Positions 49,861 through 64,000 of a DNA stretch of 64,000 nucleotides are shown here, one piece after another. Every line of letters starts with the position of its first letter. Position 1 is the stretch's first letter. Made by a program: the position numbers and the translations under genes. Source of the DNA: Stigmatella aurantiaca (GTDB taxonomy: Bacteria > Myxococcota > Myxococcia > Myxococcales > Myxococcaceae); the NCBI RefSeq assembly GCF_900109545.1, contig NZ_FOAP01000012.1, forward strand, positions 124,001 through 188,000, given 5' to 3'. The notes under the pieces were generated by a model. That model saw nothing but the letters and a program-made list of their open reading frames with translations, was not told the origin of the DNA and searched no databases.

Positions 49861-50273
49861 GGCGTAGTTCCTTGGAATCCGTGACGTGAAGCCGCTTTGC
49901 ACAAAGGTGATGCACGCCCTCGATTCAGCAACGAAGACTTGTTTCCTCTCATCCTCAGCAGGCGAGCGGGTGTCCCGGGAAGCTCCGGTGGACCACAGCG
50001 CCCACCCCATCAGCACGGATTGGAAGAAGAGCCGCACGAACCGCCTCCTTGCGGCCATATGCCACACGGACCGCGCCTCGACGCCTTGCTCACCTGGCAA
50101 GACAGTAGGCAAGGGAGTGCCAATCGGTCCGCCTCGGTGCGCGGAGAAGAAGGCGGAGCAGGCCGCGTCAAACTCTCGTCAAACTCTCCACGTGGGCCTC
50201 CCGGCTGGCAGTGTCCGGCGTCCTCACCGCCGTGTAGGGACGACCAGGTGCGCGGAGACCATGTTCGTGCTTC
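49861..50273. other. Intergenic region, no gene seen
   Basis: The minus frame of the DUF2383 gene stays open here but lacks conservation. A tandem 11-bp repeat, CGTCAAACTCT twice (50166-50187), is the only structure noticed. Confidence 0.4.
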
Positions 50274-51323
50274 TCACAGGACCTCGGTCTTCAGGTCCGG
50301 GAAGACCTTGCCCACCTTGCCGAGGAGATAGTCCCCGTAGGTGCCCTGGAAGGCATGCACGCTCTGCCGGTCCCAGCGCTCGGAGGCATCATCCGCCGCC
50401 GCACCCGCGAGGGCCGGGGATTCAATGGGCCGGACCGCCGCCGTCCACCCCGGGTCGAAGAAGAACGGCCAGGACAGGCGGTCACGGCCCGCCCGGTTCT
50501 GCACCCGGTGTGGCGTCGAACGGTAGACGCCCCGGGTCATGCGGTCGAGCATGTCCCCGATGTTGCACACGAACGAGCCGGGCACGGGCGGCGCCTCCAC
50601 CCAGCGCACCTGGCCCCCCTGGCGCGACTTGACCTGAAGCCCTCCCGCCTCGTCCTGCTTGAGGAGGGTCAGCATGCCGTAGTCCGTGTGCTCGCCCACC
50701 CCCCAGATGGGGTGTCCGTCCTCGGCGGTGTCGTCCCCAGGGGGGTAGTTGAAGATGCGGAAGAGGACCAGCGGGTCGGCCGTGTAGCGCGCGGCGAAGT
50801 AGTCCTCCGCCAGCTCCAGGCTGAGTGCGATGCCCGACATGAGGGCATGGCTGAGCTGGGTGAGAGCGGCCATGTACGCCAGGACGGCGTCGCGCAGGCC
50901 CGAGGGCTCGCGGGGGAACAGGTTGGCGCCATGGAGGGGCGTCCCGGCCCGGACGAGCGGGTGCCCAGGTCCGAGCTCGGAACCAAAGTAGAGGCCTTCC
51001 TTGCGGTCCGGGCGGCCGGAGGTCAGCTCGCCCCCAACGGGGAAGTACCCGCGCCAGGCACGGCCGCCGAGCGCCATGCGGATGGCCAGCTTGTCCTCCA
51101 GCGGGAGCGCGAAGAAGCGGCGGCTCAAGTCCTCTAGATGAGATTGAAGCCCTGCGTCGACGCCATGGCCCACCGCATAGAAGAAGCCGCTCTCCCGGCA
51201 GGCCGCACCGATCTGGGTGGCGACAGCCTTCCGGTCCGCAGCACTCGAGGAACCACCGGTGAGCGCGCGGACATCGATCACGGGAAGACGGTCGAAGCCA
51301 TCGGCTGCGGATGCGGTGTTCAT
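50274..51323 (-). CDS. 2-oxoglutarate/Fe(II) oxygenase, isopenicillin-N-synthase type
   Basis: 349 residues from ATG 51323. The N-terminal DIOX_N region ([23 protein letters not shown]) precedes the double-stranded beta-helix core. Iron ligands are H212 and D214 ([12 protein letters not shown]) and H272 (STPHRV); the 2OG/carboxylate-binding Arg and Ser are in RLSWPF (R282, S284). It is soluble and probably acts on a small hydrophobic or amino-acid-like substrate. It is divergent from the hydrolase operon, sharing a 215-bp promoter region. No biosynthetic cluster surrounds it. Confidence 0.9.
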
Positions 51324-51538
51324 GGGGAGGGTTCCTCTCGGGACGGCCGCAGAACGTGGGGCACACCCTAGCACGATGTGAGCGGAGGGCTGCTCGCCTG
51401 GCTCCGGGCGGAGGGCCAGGCGCTTCCGGACAGGAAAAAACCGCGCCATCACATTCGGTGAGAGGGCACTCCATCGCGGTGAGACGGGCGCGGCAGGGCA
51501 AGAGCGCCGTGTGCCTTCAGCCAGAAACGTGAGCCTTC

Positions 51539-52591
51539 ATGCGAACCGAATCCACTTCTCCTCCTCGCTACGCGGAGCACGTCGTGCCCTTCGTGGCCGG
51601 AGATGGCCGGCCGCTGAACCTCGTTCACATCCTCGGAGAGCGAGCGCCGGACAAGGGACCCGTGGTCCTTGTCCATGGGGCGGGTGTACGCGCCAACATC
51701 TTCCGCGCGCCCGTCGAGCAGTCCCTCGTGGATACACTCGTGACGGCTGGCTACGACGTGTGGCTAGAGAACTGGCGTGCGAGCATCGACCTCGAACCCA
51801 ACGCGTGGACGCTCGACCAGGCCGCCGTCCACGATCACCCCAAAGCCATCCAGACGATCGTCCGGGAAACTGGCTGGGATGAGGTGAAGGCCATCGTCCA
51901 CTGCCAGGGCTCGACGAGCTTCATGCTGTCGGCGGTGGCGGGGCTCGTCCCGCAGGTGAAGGTCATCGTCAGCAACGCCGTCTCCCTGCATCCCCAGGTG
52001 CCGCGCTCGGCGGGCTGGAAGGCCCGCTACGCCCTCCCTGTGGTGGCACGGCTGACGGACCACCTGAACCCTCAATGGGGTCTGGAGGCAAAGGGCGCCG
52101 TCGCCAGAGCCATCACCCTGCTGGTGAAGGCCACCCATCGAGAGTGTGACAACACCGTGTGCAGGCTGGCGAGCTTCACGTACGGCACGGGGTTCCCAAC
52201 GCTCTGGCGCCACGAGAACCTCAACCCCGAGACGCACGAGTGGCTGAAGCACGAGTTCGCCCAGGTACCGCTCACCTTCTTCCAGCAAATGGCCCAGTGC
52301 CTGCGCGCGGGGCAGCTGGTGCCGGTGGAGGGCTACCGGGAACTCCCCGAGGACGTGGCCGAGCGCCCGCCCGAGACGGACGCCCGCTTCGTCTTGCTCA
52401 CCGGAGCCTTGAACCGGTGCTTCCTGCCCGAGAGCCAGCGGCGCACCCATGAGCAGCTCTCGCGGCACCGGCCCGGCTACCACGCGCTGCACGTGATTCC
52501 CGGGTACGGGCACCTGGACATCTTCATGGGCCAGAACGCAGCCCGGGACGTCTTTCCTCTCATCCAGGCCGAGCTGGACAGGCCGGTGTAA
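51539..52591 (+). CDS. Alpha/beta hydrolase with Cys nucleophile elbow
   Basis: 350 residues. The oxyanion segment is VLVHGAGVRANIF. The nucleophile elbow reads V120-H-C-Q-G124, placing Cys122 where Ser is usual, as in PHA synthases (G-x-C-x-G). The terminal His is in PGYGHLDIF. It is the first of five tightly packed genes ending at 57637. Its partner enzymes suggest a steroid or terpenoid ester, lactone or CoA substrate, but this is an inference. Confidence 0.85.
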   Translation: MRTESTSPPRYAEHVVPFVAGDGRPLNLVHILGERAPDKGPVVLVHGAGVRANIFRAPVEQSLVDTLVTAGYDVWLENWRASIDLEPNAWTLDQAAVHDHPKAIQTIVRETGWDEVKAIVHCQGSTSFMLSAVAGLVPQVKVIVSNAVSLHPQVPRSAGWKARYALPVVARLTDHLNPQWGLEAKGAVARAITLLVKATHRECDNTVCRLASFTYGTGFPTLWRHENLNPETHEWLKHEFAQVPLTFFQQMAQCLRAGQLVPVEGYRELPEDVAERPPETDARFVLLTGALNRCFLPESQRRTHEQLSRHRPGYHALHVIPGYGHLDIFMGQNAARDVFPLIQAELDRPV

Positions 52592-52603
52592 CGGAGTACC
52601 GCG

Positions 52604-53518
52604 ATGTGGACCCGGCCCAAACGGCTGAAACGACAGACAGGACGCTACGCGAGGGTGGATGGCATCCCCTACACGCTGCCCATCAACTCCCGGGAGTCCC
52701 CCGCGCTGATGGCGGCATTCACGATCGACGCGAGCAAGGCCGCCGCGCTGATGCCTGGCAACGAGGTACACCCGCTGCGCCTGTGGGGAAACAAGGGCGT
52801 GCTGCTCGTCACGGTCATCGACTACCGGGACACGGACATCGGGCCCTACATCGAGTTCAGCGTCGCCATCGCCTGCACCCACGGCCCGAAGCCCGCCCGC
52901 CCCCTGTGGCCCCTGCTCTTCCAGAAGCACCATGGGCTGGGCCAGTACGTGGTGGACCTGCCGGTGAGCACGGAGGTCTCCGTGAAGGGCGGCAAGGGCA
53001 TCTGGGGCATGCCCAAGCACCAGGCGAACCTGGACTTCCACATCAGCGGCCAGACCGTCAGCAGCCAGTACGACAAAGACGGGAAGCTGGCGCTGCGCAT
53101 CGAGATTGACCGGCCTGGCAAGGCGTGGCTCCCCCTGCGCGCCAGCGGTGCCAACTACTGCCAGTTCCGCGGGATGCTGATGAAGTCCCTCATCCACTTC
53201 CGGGGAAAATTCGCCCTCCGGCTGGGAAGGAAGGCCTCGGCCCACCTCACCCTCGGAGACCATCCGCGCGTGCAGCCGCTCAAGACGCTCGGGATTGCCT
53301 CCCAGCCGTTCTTCACCGGCTTCCTCCCCTCCGCGAGTGGCGAGCTGGATGACCATTTCGAGTGCTGGTTTCTCAGCTACCCCGCGCTTCCTGCCGGCCC
53401 CCAGGAGGGACTGGAGAGCGTGGCCGAGCTCGGCCTGAGCCAGCACTGGCTGACGCCGCCGAGCGCCGGCGGCAGGCAGCAGTCCCCGCTCCCTCCTCTC
53501 TCTCAGGAGCTCACATAA
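52604..53518 (+). CDS. Acetoacetate-decarboxylase-superfamily protein
   Basis: 304 residues, with the ADC-fold pattern: ALMPGNEVHPLRLWGNKGVL, GPYIEFSVAIAC, then KGIWGMPKHQANLDF in the position of the E/L-WG-x-PK Schiff-base loop. The Lys of PKHQ may match the catalytic Lys of acetoacetate decarboxylase. It starts 12 nt after the hydrolase stop, and its own stop abuts the next ATG (TAAATG). Its role in the operon is unknown. Confidence 0.8.
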   Translation: MWTRPKRLKRQTGRYARVDGIPYTLPINSRESPALMAAFTIDASKAAALMPGNEVHPLRLWGNKGVLLVTVIDYRDTDIGPYIEFSVAIACTHGPKPARPLWPLLFQKHHGLGQYVVDLPVSTEVSVKGGKGIWGMPKHQANLDFHISGQTVSSQYDKDGKLALRIEIDRPGKAWLPLRASGANYCQFRGMLMKSLIHFRGKFALRLGRKASAHLTLGDHPRVQPLKTLGIASQPFFTGFLPSASGELDDHFECWFLSYPALPAGPQEGLESVAELGLSQHWLTPPSAGGRQQSPLPPLSQELT

Positions 53519-54190
53519 ATGACCACCTCCTCCTCCGGCCTGACCTTTCGCGAGACCATGTCCGGTCCGCTGGCACTCCACGAGACCGATCCCCTCACGG
53601 GGGCGAACAAGGGCCGCCACACCCCCTTCACCTTCCACGCCACCATCCGCATCGACGACATGGAGGCGTTCATCCGGGACCCTCAGCATGAGGCCCACCT
53701 CACCGCCCACGTCTCCTATCCCCCTTTCGGCGACAACCTCCCGGTGAAGCGGGGATGCTTCAACCTCTTCAAGTCCGGCGACAGCCCAGACACCCGGCTG
53801 ATGACCTATGGCATGGCCTTCGAGCACCAGGGCCGCGAGTACTACCTGGCGGGCACGAAGACGATCCACGACGATCCAGGATCGGATCTGTGGCACGACA
53901 CCACCCGGCTCTACTGCCGGCTCCACGAAGGCCCGGACGAGCGCGGCCCCACGGTGGGCGCGGGCGTCCTCAAGCTGGGCCTGGGAGAGCTGCTCAAGCT
54001 CGTCTCCAGCATGCGCTCGTCCCGCGAGGGGGCCGCCGGTCTCCAGGCCGTGATGCACTTCGGCCGGTTCTTCCTCGGCGCCCTCTGGGAAATCTATCTC
54101 CCCCTCGCACGCGGGCCCGAAGCGGCGGCGCGCGAGCCGCTGTCCCCTCCCGTGAAAGAACCCGGAGCCCCCCATGACCCCACGGCGTGA
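53519..54190 (+). CDS. Stand-alone domain usually fused to GMC cholesterol-oxidase-like enzymes
   Basis: 223 residues beginning LTFRETMSGPL. A beta-rich body contains FTFHATIRIDDMEAFIRDPQ, LPVKRGCFNLF and YYLAGTKTIHDDPGSDLWHD, followed by a helical end GVLKLGLGELLKLVSSM and FGRFFLGALWEIYLP. I recognise this as a module found fused or adjacent to large GMC oxidoreductases. Here it is a separate gene and overlaps the GMC start by 17 bases. It probably forms a complex with that enzyme. Confidence 0.75.
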   Translation: MTTSSSGLTFRETMSGPLALHETDPLTGANKGRHTPFTFHATIRIDDMEAFIRDPQHEAHLTAHVSYPPFGDNLPVKRGCFNLFKSGDSPDTRLMTYGMAFEHQGREYYLAGTKTIHDDPGSDLWHDTTRLYCRLHEGPDERGPTVGAGVLKLGLGELLKLVSSMRSSREGAAGLQAVMHFGRFFLGALWEIYLPLARGPEAAAREPLSPPVKEPGAPHDPTA

Positions 54191-55946
54191 ACACTTTGAC
54201 GCCATCATCGTCGGCTCGGGCTTTGGCGGCTCGGTGATGGCGTGGCGGTTGGCGGAGGCAGGCCTGCGCGTCTGCCTCCTGGAGCGCGGCAAGGCCTATC
54301 CGCCCGGCTCCTTCCCCCGCAGTCCCTATGCCATGCGCAGCAACTTCTGGGACCCGAGCATGGGACTGCACGGGCTCTTCAACCTGTGGTCCTTCAAGAA
54401 GCTGGGCGGCGTGGTGGCCAGTGGGCTGGGGGGTGGCTCGCTCATCTATGCCAACGTGCTGCTGCGCAAGGACGAGCGGACCTTCGTCCACGAGAACTTG
54501 CAGGACGGCGGATACGAGGACTGGCCCGTCACCCGCGAGGACCTGGAGCCGCACTACGACGCCGTGGAGAAGATGCTCGGGACCCAGCGCTACCCCTTCG
54601 AGCACGAGCCCTACCGCCACACCTCGAAGACGATCGCGATGAAGCTCGCCGCCGAGCGGATGGGCCTTGAGGACGACTGGCAGCTCCCCCCGCTGGGGGT
54701 GACGTTCGCCAACCCGGGACAGCGCCCTGTGCCGGGAGAGCCCATCCGGGAGCGGTTCCCGAACCTGCACGGGCGGACACGCCTGACGTGCCGGCTGTGC
54801 GGCGAGTGTGACATTGGCTGCAACTACGGCAGCAAGAACACGCTCGACTACACGTACCTCTCGGCCGCGAAGCGGCTCGGAGCGGAGCTGCGCGTCCGGG
54901 CCGAGGTGAAGGCCTTCTGGCCCGAGGGGAGCGAGTACGCCGTCGAGTACGTGGACCACTCGGAGGCACGGGAGGGCGAGCGGCCCGAAGTGCCCACCTC
55001 GATGTTGCCCCGGACGATCATCTCCGCGGACCAGCTCGTCCTGGCGGCGGGAACCTTCGGGTCGACGTACCTGCTGCTCAAGAACCGGGCGGCGTTCCCG
55101 GGGCTCAGCGGCCAGCTCGGGACGCGGTTCTGCGGCAACGGCGACCTGCTGGGGTTCCTCTTCAAGTGTACGGACAGCAGCAAGGGCAAGCGCGAGCCGC
55201 GCATCCTCGATGGGGGCCACGGCCCGGTCATCACCAGCGCCCTCCACATCCGGGATGCCACCGAAGGGGGCACGGGGCGCGGCTACTACGTGGAGGACGC
55301 GGGCTACCCGGAGTTCGTCAACTGGCTCTACGAGGGCAGCGGCCAGCTCGCCCTGCTGCGCCGCTTCATGAGCCTGGGCCAGCGGCTCGTGAAGGGGTGG
55401 CTTGGCCTCAGCCGGGATACCGACGTGAGCGCCGAGATCGCCAGCGTCCTCGGCGACTGCGTGGGCTCGGCCAGCTCGCTGCCGCTGCTCGCCATGGGCC
55501 GGGACATCCCGGATGGGCGGATGAGCCTGAACCGTGACGGGCTGCTGGACATCGAATGGAGCATGCGCCGCTCGGCCAGCTACTTCCGGCGCGTCCGCCA
55601 GACCATGGCGGAGATCGCCGATGCGCTCGAAGGGAAGCTGCTCCACAACCCGCTCAGCTACCTCAGCCGCGTCATCACCGTGCACCCGCTCGGCGGCTGT
55701 CCCATGGGCCGTACCGCCGGGCAAGGCGTAGTGGACGCCCATGGCCAGGTCTTCAACCACCCCGGCCTCTATGTGGCCGATGGGGCGGTGATGCCGGGCC
55801 CCACCGGCCCCAACCCCAGCCTCACCATCGCCGCCCTGGCCGACCGCTTCGCCGATCACCTCATCGATCGCGCCCGCCGCCCCACTTCTCACCCCTCGTT
55901 TCATGTCCCTGTGAAGGAAGCGCCATGGCCTCACACGCGCACGTAA
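54174..55946 (+). CDS. GMC oxidoreductase, cholesterol-oxidase-like, with four-Cys cluster motif
   Basis: 590 residues. The FAD-binding GSGFGGS is at 14-20, a second dinucleotide contact is at VASGLGGGSLIYANVL, and the C-terminal active-site region is TVHPLGGCPMG and GPTGPNPSLTIAALADRFA. Between them, C206-x2-C209-x2-C212-x3-C216 (CRLCGECDIGCNYG) is spaced like a 4Fe-4S ligand set. This is known in some cholesterol-oxidase-like dehydrogenases and implies electron transfer other than to oxygen. No Tat or Sec signal is present, so it is cytoplasmic. It overlaps both neighbours in the operon. Confidence 0.9.
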   Translation: MTPRREHFDAIIVGSGFGGSVMAWRLAEAGLRVCLLERGKAYPPGSFPRSPYAMRSNFWDPSMGLHGLFNLWSFKKLGGVVASGLGGGSLIYANVLLRKDERTFVHENLQDGGYEDWPVTREDLEPHYDAVEKMLGTQRYPFEHEPYRHTSKTIAMKLAAERMGLEDDWQLPPLGVTFANPGQRPVPGEPIRERFPNLHGRTRLTCRLCGECDIGCNYGSKNTLDYTYLSAAKRLGAELRVRAEVKAFWPEGSEYAVEYVDHSEAREGERPEVPTSMLPRTIISADQLVLAAGTFGSTYLLLKNRAAFPGLSGQLGTRFCGNGDLLGFLFKCTDSSKGKREPRILDGGHGPVITSALHIRDATEGGTGRGYYVEDAGYPEFVNWLYEGSGQLALLRRFMSLGQRLVKGWLGLSRDTDVSAEIASVLGDCVGSASSLPLLAMGRDIPDGRMSLNRDGLLDIEWSMRRSASYFRRVRQTMAEIADALEGKLLHNPLSYLSRVITVHPLGGCPMGRTAGQGVVDAHGQVFNHPGLYVADGAVMPGPTGPNPSLTIAALADRFADHLIDRARRPTSHPSFHVPVKEAPWPHTRT

Positions 55947-57637
55947 GCAGCGTGCCAGCGTCCTCTCCCGCTGCACCTCCCCGGCCCCCGGGCCGGAAGA
56001 TGGTGTCCTGGTTGGATCCCCTCCTGCTTGCGAAGACAGGCCTGAGGGCCTCCATCTCCGCCACGATCGGAAAGCAGGCCGACCGGCGGCTGCTCGACGC
56101 GTTGGCGGCGCCCGAGGTGAAGCCCTATGACTTCTCCGTGGATGCGACGGGCAACCCCCGGGAGGAGCTGTGGTTCGATTATGTCTCGGACCTGGGGGAC
56201 GGCTGGGATTCCACCTACGCGGTGGCCCAGGCGGTTTCACACCCCACCCTCGCGGTGCGGGACGATTCAGGAGCCACCTACGAGACGCGCGGCGGGGAGC
56301 TGCTCGTGTTCGGTGGGGACGAGGTGTACCCGGCCGCGAGCGTGGCGGAGTACGTCGAGCGGACCCTCCAGCCCTGGGTCTGTGCCATTCGCGGGCAGCG
56401 GCGGCCGCCCCACCTGTTCGCCGTCCCGGGGAACCATGACTGGTATGATGGGCTCGTCTCCTTCATGCGCCTGTTCTGCCAGGGCCGCACCCTCGACGGG
56501 TTCAAGACCCACCAGCGCCGCAGCTACTTCTCCGTGAAGTTGCCCCAGGGGTGGTGGCTGCTCGGCGTGGACATGCAGCTCGAGTCGGACATCGACCGGC
56601 CCCAGGTCTCCTACTTCGAGGAGCTCGCCAAGCAGATGCGTGAGGGCGACCGCATCATCCTGTGCCTGGCGGAGCCCGCCTGGCTGGCCGCCCAGACGCA
56701 TTCCCAGGAGAGCCGCTTCCGCCTGGAGAACAACCTCCGCTACCTCGAAGAGCACGTGCTGGGAAAGAAGGTCAGCGTCTTCCTCGCGGGAGACATCCAC
56801 CACTACCAGCGCCATGCCAACGCGGAGGGGAGGCAGAAGATCGTCGCCGGAGGAGGCGGTGCCTTTCTGCACCCGACCCACGCATACCGGACGGAGGCCA
56901 CGCTGCGGGAGGGCTTCACCCCGCGCAAGAGCTTCCCGAGCCCCCAGGAGTCCCGGCGGCTGTGCTGGCGCAACCTCGGGCTCGCGGCCACCAGCCCCCG
57001 GTTTGGGCTGCTCACCGGCCTGCTCTACCTGCTGTTGGCCTGGGCGCTCCCGGTGAACCTCGGCGATGCGAACGTACCGCAGTCCCTGGGGCTCGTGGGG
57101 CTCACGCTGCTCTCCAGCCCGGGGCTCGTGCTCATCACCGTGCTCGCCCTCCTGGGGCTGATCGGCTTCGCGGACAAAAGCTTCGGCCGCTGGCGCTGGG
57201 CCGCGGGGGGGCTGCACGGCCTGGCGCACCTGGCCGCGGTGTTCCTGCTCGCCGTGGGCGTGGCGCACCTGATGGGCTCCGTCCTGCATCTGCCCTTCCG
57301 AAGCCCAGGGAGGGACTTGCTCAGCGCCGGGCTCTTCTTCGTGGGCGGCTTCCTGGCCGGACCGACGCTCATGGGCCTCTACCTGCTCCTCTCGCTCAAC
57401 GTCTTCGGCGCCCACGCGAACGAGGCGTTCTCCTCCCTGGCAATCCCCGACTGGAAGAACTTCATCCGGCTGCACATCGGCAAGAATGGAGAGCTGAGCA
57501 TCTTTCCCGTCGGCATCCGGCGCGTGCCCCGGGCGTGGAAGCCAGGAGAGACCGCCCGGGAGCCGGCGTGGATCGCGGATCCCCAGGAGCGGCGGGCCAC
57601 GCCCCCAGCGCTCATCGAGCCCCCCATCGTCCTGTGA
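55925..57637 (+). CDS. Membrane-anchored metallophosphoesterase
   Basis: 570 residues from ATG 55925 with GAAGGAAG upstream; the GMC stop lies 19 bases inside. The calcineurin-like metal motifs are present but altered at the first block: VSDLGDG, GGDEVYP, GNHDWYDG (the GNHD block) and AGDIHHYQRH (the GDxHxxxxH block). After about residue 355, five membrane helices follow, then a soluble tail. It is the last gene of the operon, and its role with the oxidase is unknown. A polar-lipid or nucleotide phosphate could be the substrate. Confidence 0.85.
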   Translation: MASHAHVSSVPASSPAAPPRPPGRKMVSWLDPLLLAKTGLRASISATIGKQADRRLLDALAAPEVKPYDFSVDATGNPREELWFDYVSDLGDGWDSTYAVAQAVSHPTLAVRDDSGATYETRGGELLVFGGDEVYPAASVAEYVERTLQPWVCAIRGQRRPPHLFAVPGNHDWYDGLVSFMRLFCQGRTLDGFKTHQRRSYFSVKLPQGWWLLGVDMQLESDIDRPQVSYFEELAKQMREGDRIILCLAEPAWLAAQTHSQESRFRLENNLRYLEEHVLGKKVSVFLAGDIHHYQRHANAEGRQKIVAGGGGAFLHPTHAYRTEATLREGFTPRKSFPSPQESRRLCWRNLGLAATSPRFGLLTGLLYLLLAWALPVNLGDANVPQSLGLVGLTLLSSPGLVLITVLALLGLIGFADKSFGRWRWAAGGLHGLAHLAAVFLLAVGVAHLMGSVLHLPFRSPGRDLLSAGLFFVGGFLAGPTLMGLYLLLSLNVFGAHANEAFSSLAIPDWKNFIRLHIGKNGELSIFPVGIRRVPRAWKPGETAREPAWIADPQERRATPPALIEPPIVL

Positions 57638-57654
57638 CGCCGCCGGCGGGCAGC

Positions 57655-58746
57655 TCAGCGGGTCATATCGAGCTGGCTGGGAGAGGCCTCGCGCCGCAAC
57701 CGCGAGGGCGCATACCGCTCATCCAGCCAGGCACTCTGGATCACCTCGGCGACGATCTCCTTGTAATGCGCGCGGATGACCCGTGCGACGCGCGGATCCC
57801 GGTAGAGCATCTGACACGCCTGACAGTGGTGGCCGAAGCGGCCTTCCCACTGGATGGAGGGGTCCCGCTCGGCGGCCCAGGCCAGGATCTTCTCGGGCCC
57901 TTTGTAACGGATCCACAGCTTCAGGAAGTCATTCTCCGCGGCCTCGATGGCTTCCTTCAGGAACGCGTTGCCCTCACCAGCCGTGGCCACGTTCAGCTCG
58001 GGGATGACGCGAAGCCCCAGACCGCAGCAGGAGCCAATCCGGCCATCGGACTGCAGGGTGTAGGTCTGCAAGACGCTGTCACAGCCGGTCCGGCTGGGAA
58101 GGTTGGCCGCGGTCACGGCGACGTGGTCCGGGTAGCGTTCCGTCTCTCCCGGCGCCAGCGGCATCCAGGGGCTCTCGATGACCCGGAGAGACTCCCGAAG
58201 CTCCGGGGCCAGCGCCGCGATGGCGGGTTGTCCGAGGAGCAGCTCCCGGGTGACGCGGCGCTCGGCCCGGAGCTCGACCATGATGTGCGTCTGGAGACGC
58301 CGCTCGACGGCGGCGACCGTGGCGTGGACCACCCGCTCCAGGGGAATGAAGCGCACGTGCTCATCCCCGGTGCTGTAGTTGATCTCCGACAAGCCCGCGT
58401 CCATGATCCGGGCGATCTTCTCGTGGGCGGCCTCGCGGGAGTGGGCCCAGTGCGCATTGGTGACAATGCGCGTGGGAAACCCGAGCGCGTGCGCCTCGGT
58501 GATGCCGGCCAACAAGTCATCCCACCGCAAGGTCGCTTCCCCTCCGGTGAAGACCACATTGTAGAAGCCCAACTCCTTCGCTTGATGGATGGCGTCGAGC
58601 ATGGTGCTCAAGGACAACCGGGTCCGATCCTTCGGGCTGCTGAGCGTTCCACAATCCTTGCACGCGGCGGGACACGTGAAGGTGGGCATGATGGACAAGG
58701 TCTTGCGCCCTTGGAACAAACCGGCCGCCAATGGGGACGTGTGCAT
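57655..58746 (-). CDS. Radical SAM protein with extra C-terminal cysteines (SPASM-like)
   Basis: 363 residues. The radical SAM cluster motif is C25-x3-C29-x2-C32 (FTCPAACKDC), with the SAM-binding GGE in VVFTGGEATL. Additional Cys residues in SRTGCDSV, GSCCGLG and GHHCQACQM suggest one or two auxiliary clusters, as in SPASM/twitch enzymes that modify peptides. The start is ATG 58746, 7 bases after the stop of the preceding 226-residue protein, so the two are one transcript. No standard RiPP precursor, protease or exporter is directly adjacent. Confidence 0.88.
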   Translation of the reverse strand: MHTSPLAAGLFQGRKTLSIMPTFTCPAACKDCGTLSSPKDRTRLSLSTMLDAIHQAKELGFYNVVFTGGEATLRWDDLLAGITEAHALGFPTRIVTNAHWAHSREAAHEKIARIMDAGLSEINYSTGDEHVRFIPLERVVHATVAAVERRLQTHIMVELRAERRVTRELLLGQPAIAALAPELRESLRVIESPWMPLAPGETERYPDHVAVTAANLPSRTGCDSVLQTYTLQSDGRIGSCCGLGLRVIPELNVATAGEGNAFLKEAIEAAENDFLKLWIRYKGPEKILAWAAERDPSIQWEGRFGHHCQACQMLYRDPRVARVIRAHYKEIVAEVIQSAWLDERYAPSRLRREASPSQLDMTR

Positions 58747-58753
58747 GAGGTCC

Positions 58754-59434
58754 TCACCGGATCTGGACGGAGAGATCGGCCAACGCGCCCACGTCCTTCA
58801 ACTCCTGGGCACGGGCGAGCAGCTGCTCGGAGATCGAGCGCAGGATGGCGGGGTTGACGAGCTGGCCCAGATCGCCAAAGCCCAGGCCGTTGAAGTTCTG
58901 GCTGGACCTCAGGGTCTGGTCGCTCGTGCTCGGCGAGTTGACAGGCGTGGCGACGGCCGTTCCCGCCGCGTTGTTGATGAGGATTTGCTGGGCACGGTCT
59001 CCCATGCCCGGAATGCCGAAGCCCGTGCTCGCATTGCTCACCACGCTCAGCAGCAGTTCGTGGTCGCCGAACTCCAGGAGCGCCTTGGCGAAGTCCTGGT
59101 TGAACTCATCCTTGCCGACCCGCCGCCCCTTGTTCTCGTTCGCATACTGGTCCATCCAGCGGAAGAACCGCTTGTTGGCGAGCACCGAGAAGAGCAGACG
59201 GTTCGCCTCGGAGGCGCGCTGCGGTGGCAACTTCTCCTGGAAGACCCGGTCCATGATGATGCCGGCAGGGTCCTGGATGAAGCGCTGCTGGGCCTTCTCA
59301 TCCGTGTCGAGATCCTGGAAGAGCGCCACCATGCTCTGGCGGAACGCCTTGCGGCCCAAGACCAGGGGCGGCGTCGAGGGCTCGCGGAGACCGGGTTTCT
59401 TGGAAGTGAAGGCACGTCGAGTCTTGGTGGCCAT
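58754..59434 (-). CDS. Unrecognised protein coupled to a radical SAM enzyme; possible substrate
   Basis: 226 residues from ATG 59434 with GAGGGAAG upstream. A basic start (MATKTRRAFTSKKPG) is followed by a helical part of about 120 residues (KAQQRFIQDPAGIIMDRVFQ, ASEANRLLFSVLANKRF). A flexible segment rich in Ser, Thr, Asn and Gly follows (about 130-190; SNASTGFGIPG, ATPVNSPSTS), and then an amphipathic end. The layout, helical N-terminus and low-complexity C-terminal half beside a SPASM-like radical SAM gene, resembles a leader/core arrangement but is longer than typical. No family is recognised. Confidence 0.65.
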   Translation of the reverse strand: MATKTRRAFTSKKPGLREPSTPPLVLGRKAFRQSMVALFQDLDTDEKAQQRFIQDPAGIIMDRVFQEKLPPQRASEANRLLFSVLANKRFFRWMDQYANENKGRRVGKDEFNQDFAKALLEFGDHELLLSVVSNASTGFGIPGMGDRAQQILINNAAGTAVATPVNSPSTSDQTLRSSQNFNGLGFGDLGQLVNPAILRSISEQLLARAQELKDVGALADLSVQIR

Positions 59435-59518
59435 GGGGCTTCCCTCGGGCGCAAGTGGATCCATCCCACTTCAGTCAGAGGGAGCAGCCCTGGCTTGTGA
59501 CGAAAAGCCTCCCTTTGC

Positions 59519-59953
59519 CTAGCCCTGGGGAACCGGCGGTTGCGGCATGAAGTCCTGCTGCCCGCGAGCCTCCGGAACGCAGGTGTACTTCACCGTGCGC
59601 GAGCCGAGCAGGAACGGAATGAGGGTGGCGCCGGTCGCCGCGCAGGAAGACACCCGCTCATCGGATTCGTCCTTGCAGATCGCCGCGCCCGCGAAGGCTC
59701 CCGCCACCCCCAGGCCGATGTTGATGAGCCAGTCCGTGCCGCTCAACTCGCTCTCCGCCCGGGCCAGGCCGTTGGGGCACTCGCCTCCCGCGGGGGAAGA
59801 CAGCGGCACCAGGCCCGCGATGGTGAACCACTGGCGGTCCGAGTACTCCCGGCCTCCCGGCGCGCGATCCGTGACGATGCTCGTGTGGTAACACCCCGCC
59901 TGGCTCATCAGCACTGCCCCGGTGACCGCCACAGCTGCAAACCGTTTCAACAT
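59519..59953 (-). CDS. Bor-like lipoprotein
   Basis: 144 residues. The signal peptide MLKRFAAVAVTGAVLMSQAG ends in a lipobox (SQAGC, C21). The mature part, with YHTSIVTDRAPGG, WFTIAGLVPLSSP, GECPNGLARAESELSG and YTCVPE, follows the pattern of the lambda Bor/YcfR-like lipoprotein family: a small disulphide-bonded beta domain with a hydrophobic mid-segment (GLGVAGAFAGAAIC). It is probably outer-membrane. It lies upstream of the radical SAM pair on the same strand with an 84-bp gap and may belong to the same transcript. Confidence 0.72.
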   Translation of the reverse strand: MLKRFAAVAVTGAVLMSQAGCYHTSIVTDRAPGGREYSDRQWFTIAGLVPLSSPAGGECPNGLARAESELSGTDWLINIGLGVAGAFAGAAICKDESDERVSSCAATGATLIPFLLGSRTVKYTCVPEARGQQDFMPQPPVPQG

Positions 59954-60100
59954 GAGTCCCTCTCCCGAAGTGAGCCTGGGCAGCCGCGCCCGGCATGTCC
60001 GCGCACGGACCAGGAGAATCCGCGTCTGTGCGCGTTCTCCCTCAATTAGGGCTTAGCGAATCCTCCTCGGGGAAGCCATACTCCTTTCACGCGAGCCCCC

Positions 60101-61738
60101 ATGACCCAGAAGCCCTCCTCCGGACGTCCCCACAAGGACCGTCTCCTCCAGCAGCTCCAGCAAGGAACCCTCTCCCGCCGCGGCTTCCTGACGCTGCTCG
60201 GCCTGTCGGCCACGGCCGTGGGAACCCAGACCCTCTTTGGCTGTGGGGACGCCTCCTCCGAGTACGACTACATCATCGTGGGCGCGGGCTCGGCGGGGTG
60301 CACCCTGGCGGCCCGGCTGCTCATGGACTCGGATGCGCGCGTGCTGCTGATCGAGGCCGGGGGCACGAATGACCGCGAGGAGATCCGCGACTTCAGCCAG
60401 TCCTGGAAGCTGACGCAGCCCGGCTCCGAGACCGACTGGGGCTACAAGTCCGTGCCCCAGCCCGCGCTGCGGGACAAGGTCCAGTCCTACTCCTGCGGCA
60501 AGGTGCTGGGGGGCAGCAGCTCCATCAACGGCATGGTCTGGGTGAAGGGCAACCCGGCCGACTTCGATGGCTGGGCCGCGGCCGGATGCCCCGGGTGGGA
60601 CGCCCGCAGCGTTCAGCCCTCGTTCCAGACCTTGAGCCAGGCGATTCAGCCGTCCGCCGCGCTCACGTCGCGCAACGCGCTGGCCCAGGCAGTGTTCGAG
60701 GCCGCCGCCGGGCTCGGCCATGCCCGCAACACGGACTACAACGGCGAGAGCCAGCGGGGCGTGAGCTACACCCAGCTCAATGTGTGGGAGGACGGCCGGC
60801 GCCAGGACGCCTTCACCGCCTTCGTGGCGCCGCACGCGGACAACCCCCGGTTGAGCATCCTGACCGGGGCCCAGGTCAAGCGCATCTCCGTACGAGGGAA
60901 GAAGGCGGACGGGGTCATCCTGGACCAAGCGGGCGCGGAGCAGACGCTGAAGGCGAACCGGGAAGTCATCGTCTGCGCGGGCACCCTGCACACCCCCCAG
61001 CTGCTGATGCTCTCGGGGATTGGCAACCCGGCGGACCTGGAGCCCCATGGCATTCCCTTGGTGGCGACGGTGCCGGGGGTGGGCCGGAACCTGCACGATC
61101 ACCTCATCTCGGTGGCGGCCCGGAAGCTGCGGCAGCCCGAGCCGGCGTCTCACATCACCGCGATGGACGTGAATGTCTTCTTCGGGGAGGGGCCCCGGCC
61201 CGGCATGCCGAGGTTCCAGGCGCAGGCCTATTACATGCGCTACGGCTGGGGCACGTACCCCTCGGAGGCGGTGGCCTTTGGCCTCATCCACCTGCACCCG
61301 ACGAGCCGGGGCACCGTGAAGCTGCGCTCGGCGGACTTCCGGGACGCGCCGCTCATCGACCCGGCCCTGCTCTCCACGGAGGAGGACCTGGCCCATCAAC
61401 TCGAAGGCTACAAGGCCATCCGGGGCCTGCTCGCCGCGCCCGGCTTGCGCGACTGGGTGGAGGACGTGGAACACACCCCCGGGCCGGACGTCTCCACGGA
61501 CGAGCAGCTGCTGGCCGCCCTGCGCCAGCACTCCGAGAGCGACTTCCATCCGGTGGGCACGTGCCGCATGGGCCAGGATGACCTGGCGGTGGTGGATCCC
61601 CAGCTTCGCGTGAGGGGCCTGGAGGGGCTGCGGCTGGCGAGCGCCGCCATCATGCCCACCGTCCCCTCGGGCAACACCAACGCGCCCAGCATGATGGTGG
61701 GCGACCACGCGGGCCGGCTGATCCTCGGGCGCGGCTGA
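60101..61738 (+). CDS. Tat-exported GMC oxidoreductase (choline-dehydrogenase-like)
   Basis: 545 residues. The N-terminus has a twin-arginine signal (SRRGFLTLLG, R26-R27) ending in FGCGDAS, where C48 could be lipidated. The FAD-binding GAGSAG is at 61-66. GMC signatures follow: CGKVLGGSSSINGMVWVKGN, NREVIVCAGTLHTPQLLMLS, and the catalytic region FHPVGTCRMG with NTNAPSMMVGDHAG. It would oxidise an alcohol outside the cytoplasm after folding with FAD inside. The substrate is unknown. It is divergent from the Bor-like gene. Confidence 0.9.
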   Translation: MTQKPSSGRPHKDRLLQQLQQGTLSRRGFLTLLGLSATAVGTQTLFGCGDASSEYDYIIVGAGSAGCTLAARLLMDSDARVLLIEAGGTNDREEIRDFSQSWKLTQPGSETDWGYKSVPQPALRDKVQSYSCGKVLGGSSSINGMVWVKGNPADFDGWAAAGCPGWDARSVQPSFQTLSQAIQPSAALTSRNALAQAVFEAAAGLGHARNTDYNGESQRGVSYTQLNVWEDGRRQDAFTAFVAPHADNPRLSILTGAQVKRISVRGKKADGVILDQAGAEQTLKANREVIVCAGTLHTPQLLMLSGIGNPADLEPHGIPLVATVPGVGRNLHDHLISVAARKLRQPEPASHITAMDVNVFFGEGPRPGMPRFQAQAYYMRYGWGTYPSEAVAFGLIHLHPTSRGTVKLRSADFRDAPLIDPALLSTEEDLAHQLEGYKAIRGLLAAPGLRDWVEDVEHTPGPDVSTDEQLLAALRQHSESDFHPVGTCRMGQDDLAVVDPQLRVRGLEGLRLASAAIMPTVPSGNTNAPSMMVGDHAGRLILGRG

Positions 61739-61747
61739 GGCCTCGCC

Positions 61748-63133
61748 CTACCCTCCCGCGGCAACCGGAGCAGGGTCCTCCTCGGGCGTGACGAGCGACT
61801 GCCTCGCCCACGCCCTGCTCCGCCACCGGAACCAGAAGAGGGTTCCGCGCAGCCATTCATCCGCCGCCATGGCCAGCCAGACCCCCGCAAGCCCCAGGTT
61901 CATCCGGAAGACGAGGAAGTAGCCCAGCGAGAGGCTCATGCAGGCCATCGAAACGAAGCCCATGTAGGCGATGAACGAGGAGTCTCCCGCGGCCCTCAGG
62001 GCATGCACCAGGATGAGGTTGATGGACCGCCCGCTCTCCAGCAGGAGACTCAGGACGAGGATCCGGGTGGTCAACTGGAGGATCTCCGGGTCGTCCGTGA
62101 ACAGGCCCACGATCGGCTCGCGCAAGAGGATCGCGGCCACATCCATCCCCAGGGAGAACGCCACGCTCCATTTCAAGCCCGCCAGGACCTGGCGGTAGGC
62201 GCCCTCCGTGTCGTTGGCGCCCACCTTGCGCCCGACGAGGATGGCCGTCCCGAAGCCGATCGACAGACAACACAGGAAAATGTACTGGGAGATCGACAGC
62301 GCATACTGCCGGGAAGCCAGGGCCGCGGTGCCGAGGAAGGACACGTAGTACAAGAAGACGGCCTGGCAGCCGTGGAACATGAACTGCTCGGCCGCGGAAG
62401 GAATCCCCACCTTCAGAATCTTCCGGACGTACTCCTTCGAGAGCGTCACGTAGTCGCGAGGCGCCATCCGCACGTCCATCACGCGGTACAGCATCCACAC
62501 GAAGACGGCCAGCGCCAGCGAGCGGCTCACCACGTTGGAGATCGCCGCCCCGGCCACCCCCATCCTCGGAAAGCCCAGATGGCCCGAGATGAGCAGGTAA
62601 TTGCCGAGCACGTGGAACACGTTCATCCCAATCGAGATGAACATGGAGTGCTTCGTGAAGCCGTACGTGCGCAGCATGCTGGAGAAGATGTTGATGAGCG
62701 CCTGCAGGAAGAGAAAACCACCAGCGATGCCCATGTACGTCTGTGCCATCGCCAGCACTGGCCCCTGAAGGTTCACGTGGCGCAGGAGCACCTGCCCGGA
62801 CAGCAGCAGCGCCGCGCTGACCGTGAGCCCCAGCAGCAGGTTCAGCGTGATGGAGAGCGCCACCATCCGGGAGGCCTCCCGGTTCCTTCGGGCGCCCAGG
62901 TACTGGGCCACGACGACGGAGGCGCCATGGCTGATCACCCCCATGATCAGCGTGCAGACGAAGATGCATTGATTGACGACGCCTACCGCCGCGACGGCGT
63001 CATCGGAGACGCTGCTGAGCATCAGCGTATCCGCCGTGCCCATCAGCATGAACAGCAGCAGCTCCAGGAAGATCGGCCACGTCAACCGGAACAGCCCCGT
63101 GGGGAGTTCTCCCTGCTTGCGCACTTCGTGCAT
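61748..63133 (-). CDS. MATE-family efflux transporter
   Basis: 461 residues with 12 membrane helices in two homologous halves. Typical segments are FMLMGTADTLMLSSVSDDAV, GVISHGASVVVAQYLGARRN and FGTAILVGRKVGANDTEGAY. It exports cationic or lipophilic compounds by Na+ or H+ exchange. It starts 16 bp after the glycosyltransferase stop on the same strand, so the product of that enzyme may be its cargo. Confidence 0.93.
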   Translation of the reverse strand: MHEVRKQGELPTGLFRLTWPIFLELLLFMLMGTADTLMLSSVSDDAVAAVGVVNQCIFVCTLIMGVISHGASVVVAQYLGARRNREASRMVALSITLNLLLGLTVSAALLLSGQVLLRHVNLQGPVLAMAQTYMGIAGGFLFLQALINIFSSMLRTYGFTKHSMFISIGMNVFHVLGNYLLISGHLGFPRMGVAGAAISNVVSRSLALAVFVWMLYRVMDVRMAPRDYVTLSKEYVRKILKVGIPSAAEQFMFHGCQAVFLYYVSFLGTAALASRQYALSISQYIFLCCLSIGFGTAILVGRKVGANDTEGAYRQVLAGLKWSVAFSLGMDVAAILLREPIVGLFTDDPEILQLTTRILVLSLLLESGRSINLILVHALRAAGDSSFIAYMGFVSMACMSLSLGYFLVFRMNLGLAGVWLAMAADEWLRGTLFWFRWRSRAWARQSLVTPEEDPAPVAAGG

Positions 63134-63149
63134 GATTCACCCTACCGCC

Positions 63150-64000
63150 TCAAGCGGCCCCCGGCACGCGAGCTCCCAGCAACCGGCCATAGAGGGCCAT
63201 GTGCTCGTGCGCCGAGCGCAGGAAGCCTTGCCGCAGGGATTCACCGAGTGCCGGGTCCGTCACCTGTCCCGGAGGTACACCTCGATCCAGCCACAGCGCG
63301 ATCGCATCGCGCAGGGCCCCCACATCCCGGGTGGGGATGATCTGCTTGGGGCCATACCCCTCCAGCAAGATGGGCAGGTTGCCCGAGTCGGTGGCGATCA
63401 CCGGCTTGCCCTGCATGATCGCCTGGGCCGTCGTGAGGGAGAAGGGCTCGCCGTGCGCACCGTTGTCGTTCGTCGGATGCAGCACGAAGTCCGCTTGCCG
63501 GATCGCCTCCCAGCTCTGCTCCACGCTGTAGTGGATGAAGTGGATGCGCCCACGCGCTTGCCACGGCGCCGCCCGGGCCAGCAGCGCCTCGTCGAGCCCC
63601 GTGGGGAAGATGCGCTGCTCGCTGCCCGCGTGGAAGAAGGTGAAGTCCTCCCGGCCTGCTTCCAGCAGCTCCAGCACCGCCTGGAGCGAGACCGCGGAGC
63701 CCTTCCACCTCGACAGGCGCGTGGGCTGGAGGATCAACCGGCCCTGGAAAGCCGGAAAGGTGTACGCGGCCCGGTTCATCGTGAGCGAGAGAAACAGCTC
63801 GTGGACCTCGGCGCCGGGGATCCTCCGGCGAACCTCCTCGGCGATGTACCGCGAGTGGGCGATGATGGGCAGCCCCCGGTGGCGCAGCACGTCCCAGCCC
63901 GCCTCGTCCTCCGACATGGCGTGCATGTTGTGGAGGATGCGGGGCGGCCGTGGCTGCGCGAGCAATCCATCGATCAGCCGCTTGACCAGGTCCATCCGGT
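63150..64000 (-). CDS. Glycosyltransferase family 4 protein (cut by window end)
   Basis: About 283 residues are visible; the N-terminal domain starts beyond base 64000. A GT-B fold is indicated by LQPTRLSRWKGSAVSLQAVL, VLHPTNDNGAHGEPFSLTTA and QAIMQGKPVIATDSGNLP. In the usual E-x7-E motif the second Glu is Gln here (EPFSLTTAQ), which occurs in some active GT4 enzymes. It sits upstream of the MATE gene in one operon. Donor and acceptor are unknown. Confidence 0.88.
   Translation of the reverse strand, partial: RMDLVKRLIDGLLAQPRPPRILHNMHAMSEDEAGWDVLRHRGLPIIAHSRYIAEEVRRRIPGAEVHELFLSLTMNRAAYTFPAFQGRLILQPTRLSRWKGSAVSLQAVLELLEAGREDFTFFHAGSEQRIFPTGLDEALLARAAPWQARGRIHFIHYSVEQSWEAIRQADFVLHPTNDNGAHGEPFSLTTAQAIMQGKPVIATDSGNLPILLEGYGPKQIIPTRDVGALRDAIALWLDRGVPPGQVTDPALGESLRQGFLRSAHEHMALYGRLLGARVPGAA

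Follow-up and report, generated by a model that had tools for sequence, protein, structure and literature searches.

Which reaction would a radical S-adenosylmethionine (SAM) enzyme carry out when the gene just in front of it encodes a 226-residue protein with no match in Pfam or NCBIfam (up to E 1) or among the sequences of the PDB (up to E 10)? This question is raised by a locus of Stigmatella aurantiaca in a stretch of 64,000 nucleotides (contig NZ_FOAP01000012.1, positions 124,001 to 188,000), hereafter called the window. A sequence-only reading had described two adjoining genes here, and both open reading frames (ORFs) were confirmed: on the minus strand, that of the partner protein (59434-58754, 226 residues, no Cys) is followed, after a 7-nt spacer, by that of the enzyme (58746-57655, 363 residues). 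The start of the 226-residue partner (MATK...) is backed by a relative of the same genus (genome G079), whose copy also starts with MATK. Our results suggest that the pair is a peptide-epimerization cassette, in which an epimerase candidate with the EpeE fold would act on a long, proteusin-like precursor, and we favour this explanation with moderate confidence.

The enzyme carries a Radical_SAM domain (31.5 bits against a Pfam cut-off of 29.5), the only Pfam model above its cut-off. The SPASM-like character previously ascribed to it was not borne out, since no SPASM model matched up to E 1. Judged from sequence and model comparisons, the known protein closest to it is EpeE (YydG), the peptide-modifying epipeptide epimerase of Bacillus; the enzyme is thus not placed in a known non-peptide radical SAM subfamily. 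The best NCBIfam family was the YydG/EpeE epimerase family TIGR04078 (E 3e-11, residues 14-317), which was the only nearly full-length match among the best 25 of 34, and EpeE entries were the top PDB matches by sequence (profile E 2.8e-16). The AlphaFold2 model of the enzyme, made from 30 sequences (predicted local distance difference test score, pLDDT, 91.7), matched the EpeE entries 8ai1-8ai6 with Z scores of 26.7-27.2 over 305-311 residues at 15-16% identity, followed by BlsE (Z 19.2) and SkfB (Z 19.0). In this comparison EpeE aligned over residues 7-337 of the model. Foldseek also matched the model to EpeE (E 5e-17). As modelled, the enzyme has the EpeE fold.

Next, relatives of the enzyme were collected with a profile of four sequences (A1), which found 45 loci in the genome contigs. 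We counted 41 of them, leaving out three short matches (L093-L095) and a broken gene (L091). Six more enzymes (E 1e-20 or better) are on plasmids of Streptomyces canus, Thermus aquaticus, Eleftheria terrae, Lactococcus lactis, the haloarchaeon Halocatena salina and Enterococcus mundtii. In 12 of the 41 loci (L051-L061 and L090, hereafter group 1) there is a match to the window partner at E < 0.001, and in all 12 it is directly upstream of the enzyme gene, overlapping it or within about 160 nt; a homologous partner adjoins the enzyme upstream in S. canus too. Group 1 covers five further phyla (Cyanobacteriota, Pseudomonadota, Actinomycetota, Bacteroidota and Ignavibacteriota), and its enzymes are at least 43% identical to that of the window (L057, which is outside the alignment, has 57% in the profile search). 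When nine whole genomes were searched with a partner profile, eight had a match, each solely at the enzyme locus, and the whole genome of L062, a locus outside group 1, had none. The pairing of enzyme and partner is therefore real and conserved, in a family related to EpeE, and the conservation of the partner beside the enzyme, on which the sequence-only reading depended, stood. Note that a single-sequence search of the genome contigs with the partner gave no relative; the family was reached only via the enzyme profile.

At most of the other 29 loci, the neighbours inspected include other, longer hypothetical proteins of about 200-390 residues beside the enzyme, and on the plasmids the neighbours are hypothetical proteins of about 170-370 residues. 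Within the order, the partner is present in 2 of 145 genomes, its own included, and a close enzyme (at least 94% identity) in the same two; two further genomes (G101 and G060) have full-length relatives of the enzyme at 34-36% identity. A further genome, G073, has a decayed enzyme gene (L045, 8337-8830), with both ends at about 80% DNA identity and the middle gone, and no partner match. On the 3' side of the G101 enzyme, an open frame of at least 2,811 codons (L044, 8435-3, minus strand) runs to the edge of the stretch; near its start it has a group-2-like leader (see below) and a hydrophobic stretch, beyond which follows a very long part, as might result from fusion of a precursor to a giant protein.

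The extra cysteines noticed earlier beside the CxxxCxxC motif were confirmed. The enzyme has only eight cysteines: the radical SAM cluster motif (C25, C29 and C32; 58651..58674), C222 and the C240-C241 pair (58024..58083), and a late CxxC (C308 and C311; 57814..57825). None of them varies among the 30 aligned enzymes, all 41 complete enzymes have them and, read by eye, so do the six plasmid enzymes. The CC and the later CxxC of EpeE align with those of our enzyme. The 8ai6 entry (D210A) differs from 8ai1 at chain position 235, giving an offset of 25; Cys223 of EpeE is therefore the second C of its YPCC, aligned with C241. This residue is the proposed H-atom donor of EpeE, as set out in part of PMC8326336, where breakage of the backbone is reported for the Cys223 mutant. 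The alignments suggest that C222, C240, C308 and C311 are probably ligands of auxiliary clusters; in the ungapped alignment, C222 and its likely EpeE counterpart (the LHC cysteine) stand two residues apart.

Alignment of 14 group-1 partners divided the protein into three parts. A leader-like domain, predicted to be helical (residues 20-135; 59030..59377), carries the motifs PLVL, FxxDPxxxx and LPPQRxSxxNRL in most partners and is shortened in Actinomadura. It is followed by a low-complexity candidate core (residues 136-190; 58865..59029) and by a predicted C-terminal helix (residues 191-226; 58757..58864) that recurs across the group. The Ser/Thr/Asn/Gly-rich C-terminal part described before is real, and contains the best-conserved segment of the protein. 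Thus, between the window and G079 the core is identical at 54 of 55 positions, the leader at 104 of 116 and the C-terminal part at 30 of 36; with the cyanobacterial partner, these values are 39 of 55, 52 of 116 and 19 of 35. At the codon level, comparison with G079 gives 1 nonsynonymous and 2 synonymous changes in the 59 codons from NASTGFG to DLGQL, 20 and 10 in the 133 codons before them, and 6 and 4 in the 34 after them. The core is at once the best-conserved segment and the one of lowest model confidence, which suggests that it is the part that is modified. The type of core changes with the branch: GTDx repeats with mixed codons in Duganella and its kin, TDHK...STQ(N/S)F in Planobispora and Sphaerisporangium, and V/A-rich sequence in one Bacteroidetes and one Ignavibacteria member. 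In the cyanobacterial partner (L051, 1515-1850) a transthyretin-like domain (PF01060, E 4.4e-5, slightly under the cut-off) is added at the N-terminus.

A tree of 35 rows (the window, 26 of the 41 loci, the six plasmid enzymes, G101 and EpeE) recovered group 1 as a supported clade (97/97), whose early branches, L060, S. canus and L059, have hydrophobic cores. The polar-core members form a clade nested within it (99/95), where the window joins the cyanobacterial copy (98/88). Since the polar clade is nested among hydrophobic-core early branches, the polar core is probably derived. Patchy presence, the plasmid copies and the tree together indicate horizontal spread of the family.

The partners of a second group (group 2) share an R(L/V)(Y/F)GxPxS-like motif, and many have V/A/N-rich cores; some have, by eye, an N-terminus that we take to be twin-arginine-like. 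The partner core of the Thermus aquaticus plasmid (L118, 2599-6074) has Asn at nearly every second residue, and the enzyme relative of the haloarchaeal plasmid (L121, 4437-4970) has a 177-residue neighbour with a V/A-rich stretch at its extreme C-terminus. Asn spacing was measured in 22 partners, 19 from outside group 1 plus S. canus, L059 and L060, without near-identical Photorhabdus copies and L066, L068, L070 and L089. From each we took the 45-residue segment that scored best when V, A, I and N were favoured regardless of spacing; in a few partners (L069, L087, Lactococcus and E. mundtii) this segment is poor. Of the Asn-Asn pairs within 30 residues, 149 of 157 had even spacing, and spacing 6 was seen 24 times against 6.5 expected. 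In the control, the upstream parts of the same proteins gave 137 even pairs of 277 (p 0.53) and the downstream parts 52 of 88 (p 0.04). This even spacing is as expected if alternating L/D (1,3-) epimerization favoured it; a two-residue register could also come from a beta-strand.

We infer the following scheme, in which the partner would be the substrate and epimerization the reaction. The partner would be a long ribosomal precursor, with a helical leader of about 115 residues, its core at residues 136-190 and the C-terminal helix; the enzyme would cleave SAM and take the alpha-hydrogen from chosen residues of the core; D-residues would result when C241 gives back a hydrogen from the opposite face. 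The modified residues, a cleavage of the precursor and the role of the product would belong to the same scheme. In the related loci the V/A/N-rich core lies on a two-residue register, as 1,3-epimerization of the PoyD type would need, and they are likely to yield a membrane-active peptide of alternating L/D residues, possibly a beta-helix. The window product is probably not a pore, as it comes from a derived branch, has a polar core and has no immunity-like gene that we could find. This answers part of the earlier alternative between a new precursor class and a protein-cofactor pathway: the former gains from a partner kept beside the enzyme across phyla and an enzyme nearest to a peptide epimerase, and for the latter we found no support.

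Several observations weigh against an epimerization cassette. By the curated cut-off of its family (300 bits) the enzyme is not an EpeE-family member, as its TIGR04078 score is 43.3 bits, and EpeE is on a very long branch of the tree (the long-branch warning also applies to Halocatena, E. mundtii and Lactococcus); for these two reasons, identity of its reaction with that of EpeE is not assured. Asp210 of EpeE has no clear counterpart, standing opposite T228 in the ungapped alignment, and a loop of different length is likely near this position. The partner model is poor (pLDDT 49.7), and neither structure prediction nor fold search of the partner gave anything usable. Between the window and G079, the nonsynonymous and synonymous rates (dN and dS) are 0.015 and 0.047 in the core and 0.071 and 0.146 in the leader. 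Because the core has few synonymous changes as well, this pair alone is no proof of stronger selection there, and it is the cyanobacterial comparison that carries the conservation argument. Leader homology between groups 1 and 2 is weak (hhalign probability 25, E 7.6e-4). The Asn parity signal is strong and rests on few lineages, mainly Thermus, L062 and homologous gamma- and betaproteobacterial cores: without Thermus and L062 the even pairs are 28 of 36 (p 0.001), and without six homologous TYV..AVNV-type cores as well, 9 of 14 (p 0.14). Finally, the window core shows no convincing two-residue register, with an uncorrected lag-2 p of 0.02, and 0.22 in the cyanobacterial copy. The corresponding values are 0.26 and 0.51 in two Streptosporangiaceae and 0.64 in Actinomadura; the Duganella-type cores follow the four-residue unit GTDx, and L058 and L090 have no two-residue excess (p 0.92 and 0.96).

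This lack of a clear register in the polar core is one reason to consider that the enzyme performs a different radical reaction on the partner core, a C-C or C-O cross-link or a dehydrogenation at an alpha or beta carbon. The EpeE fold and cysteines would then be inherited, and the polar-core branch would have changed its chemistry. The nested position of that branch inside hydrophobic-core lineages would agree with such a change, and SuiB, which makes C-C bonds (PMC8326336), is among the fold matches of the enzyme model. However, the candidate H-atom donor C241 is invariant in the polar-core branch, and we regard another chemistry as unlikely. One form of it, a thioether of the sactipeptide or ranthipeptide type, was rejected, as the window partner has no Cys.

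It is more doubtful still that the partner is an accessory or recognition protein, with the true substrate encoded elsewhere. Its length, above that of usual precursors of ribosomally synthesized and post-translationally modified peptides (RiPPs), and its predicted helical leader would suit such a role, but it is the low-complexity segment, not the helical part, that is best conserved, and the core type changes between branches while the leader is kept, as in the evolution of precursors.

Slightly less probable again is that the polar-core branch, with the window and the GTDx repeats of Duganella, makes a structural or surface protein with D-residues and not a secreted small molecule. The long Duganella repeats with mixed codons are consistent with it, and so are the neighbouring genes. 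The search for immunity-like genes used eight proteins as queries, of which six came from the same loci or the same genome. Outside the polar-core set, 23 of the 31 loci have proteins of the SdpI, DUF1648 or PH-like kinds in their stretches (12 of the 23 are from Photorhabdus and not independent), versus 0 of 10 polar-core loci (the L051 stretch is merely 4.6 kb) and none in positions 50000-64000 of the window. The SdpI and DUF1648 matches are above the Pfam cut-offs, and the PH label comes from matches below them. In Thermus (L118) the enzyme is followed by an annotated SdpI gene, which is next to it, and by a methyltransferase gene. These genes may confer immunity. Against a structural protein, we noticed no export signal or anchor in the window partner, although no search aimed at its location was made. 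Last, an accidental adjacency of the two genes, to which only the rarity of the partner within the order (2 of 145 genomes) could lend weight, is refuted in practice by the pairing in 12 of 12 loci of five further phyla, and in the order the partner and the close enzyme share the same two genomes.

Other neighbours had been proposed to belong to the system. The Bor-like lipoprotein was rejected as a member: it is in 34 of 96 family genomes (four weakly), against 2 of 145 genomes of the order for the partner, and in a 16-kb stretch of G077 it stands beside the second GMC gene without the pair. The MATE gene, taken for an exporter, was rejected too; in the closest relative, G079, it was not found in the roughly 6.5 kb that follow the second GMC gene, and the G079 stretch gave only a 39-base match. 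The first GMC gene and a phosphoesterase gene were seen in the G079 stretch and not in those of G077 or G078, the only stretches searched. Two adjacent same-frame ORFs of the window (52604-54190; 304 and 223 residues) match in length one 524-residue ORF of G079 (L046, 2097-3671). At L056 (7079-8739) a 330-residue protein of no known kind and an FkbM-type methyltransferase are encoded 3' of the enzyme, with similar ORFs in other Duganella-type loci. Next to the Lactococcus plasmid copy (L120, 7090-10473) are genes for a C1-family peptidase and for an ABC transporter ATP-binding protein, which might serve in processing and export.

How does the cassette compare with known systems? Part of the hydrophobic-core members recall SdpC/SdpI, as SdpI or DUF1648 proteins adjoin several of them and 7 of 16 group-2 partners match SdpC in their cores; these matches are far under the cut-off (best E 8e-4), and none was found for the window branch. 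We know of no radical SAM enzyme in the sdp operon. With proteusins (PoyA/PoyD, the polytheonamide type) the window partner has a long leader in common, and the cores on a two-residue register at the related loci match the 1,3-epimerization pattern reported for PoyD in the part of PMC8326336 concerned. The window partner differs in matching no RiPP leader model, and by such models it has no proteusin-type leader: the nitrile-hydratase-like leader (e.g. TIGR04509) gave no match to it and reached 1 of 14 group-1 partners at E 0.006. The S. canus partner matched TIGR04509 with E 0.0012 (18.8 bits against a cut-off of 34), and other below-cut-off leader matches were to TIGR04351 (E 8.8e-5) and, in 4 of 16 group-2 partners, to IniB_NTERM (best E 2e-6). 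An enzyme of the PoyD type would have a single cluster and a C-terminal RiPP recognition element; the window enzyme has the extra invariant C222, C240, C308 and C311, which may bind auxiliary clusters, and its model aligns with EpeE over residues 7-337.

EpeE/YydG with EpeX, from Bacillus subtilis, is alike in fold, in the CxxxCxxC motif, in the CC with the proposed H-atom donor and in the later CxxC; it differs from the window enzyme in that the latter reaches 43 bits of 300, with the low structural-alignment identity (15-16%) given above. A peptidase and an ABC transporter, which we take to be epe operon genes, were not among the eight window proteins scanned in Pfam. EpeX is a short peptide with a 32-residue leader (PMC8326336), whereas the window partner has 226 residues.

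No description of this enzyme-partner family was among the open-access titles and abstract openings listed, which does not establish its absence from print. The part of PMC8326336 on which we draw divides the radical SAM epimerases of ribosomal peptides into two unrelated types: PoyD goes with long leaders and makes many epimerizations, whereas EpeE makes two, in a short peptide. Tentatively, we propose a third kind of ribosomal D-residue system, in which EpeE-fold epimerases work with very long, proteusin-like precursors, some of them with a twin-arginine-like N-terminus, on chromosomes and plasmids of many bacteria and a haloarchaeon. Most would give alternating L/D membrane channels with SdpI- or PH-like immunity, and the window branch a polar-core D-residue protein of other use, which, if it carries D-residues, would be an unusual case of a long and polar protein stretch of mixed handedness. 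The family couples an EpeE-type enzyme to long precursors, and its natural series of V/A/N cores, GTDx repeats and polar cores allows the rules of site choice to be tested.
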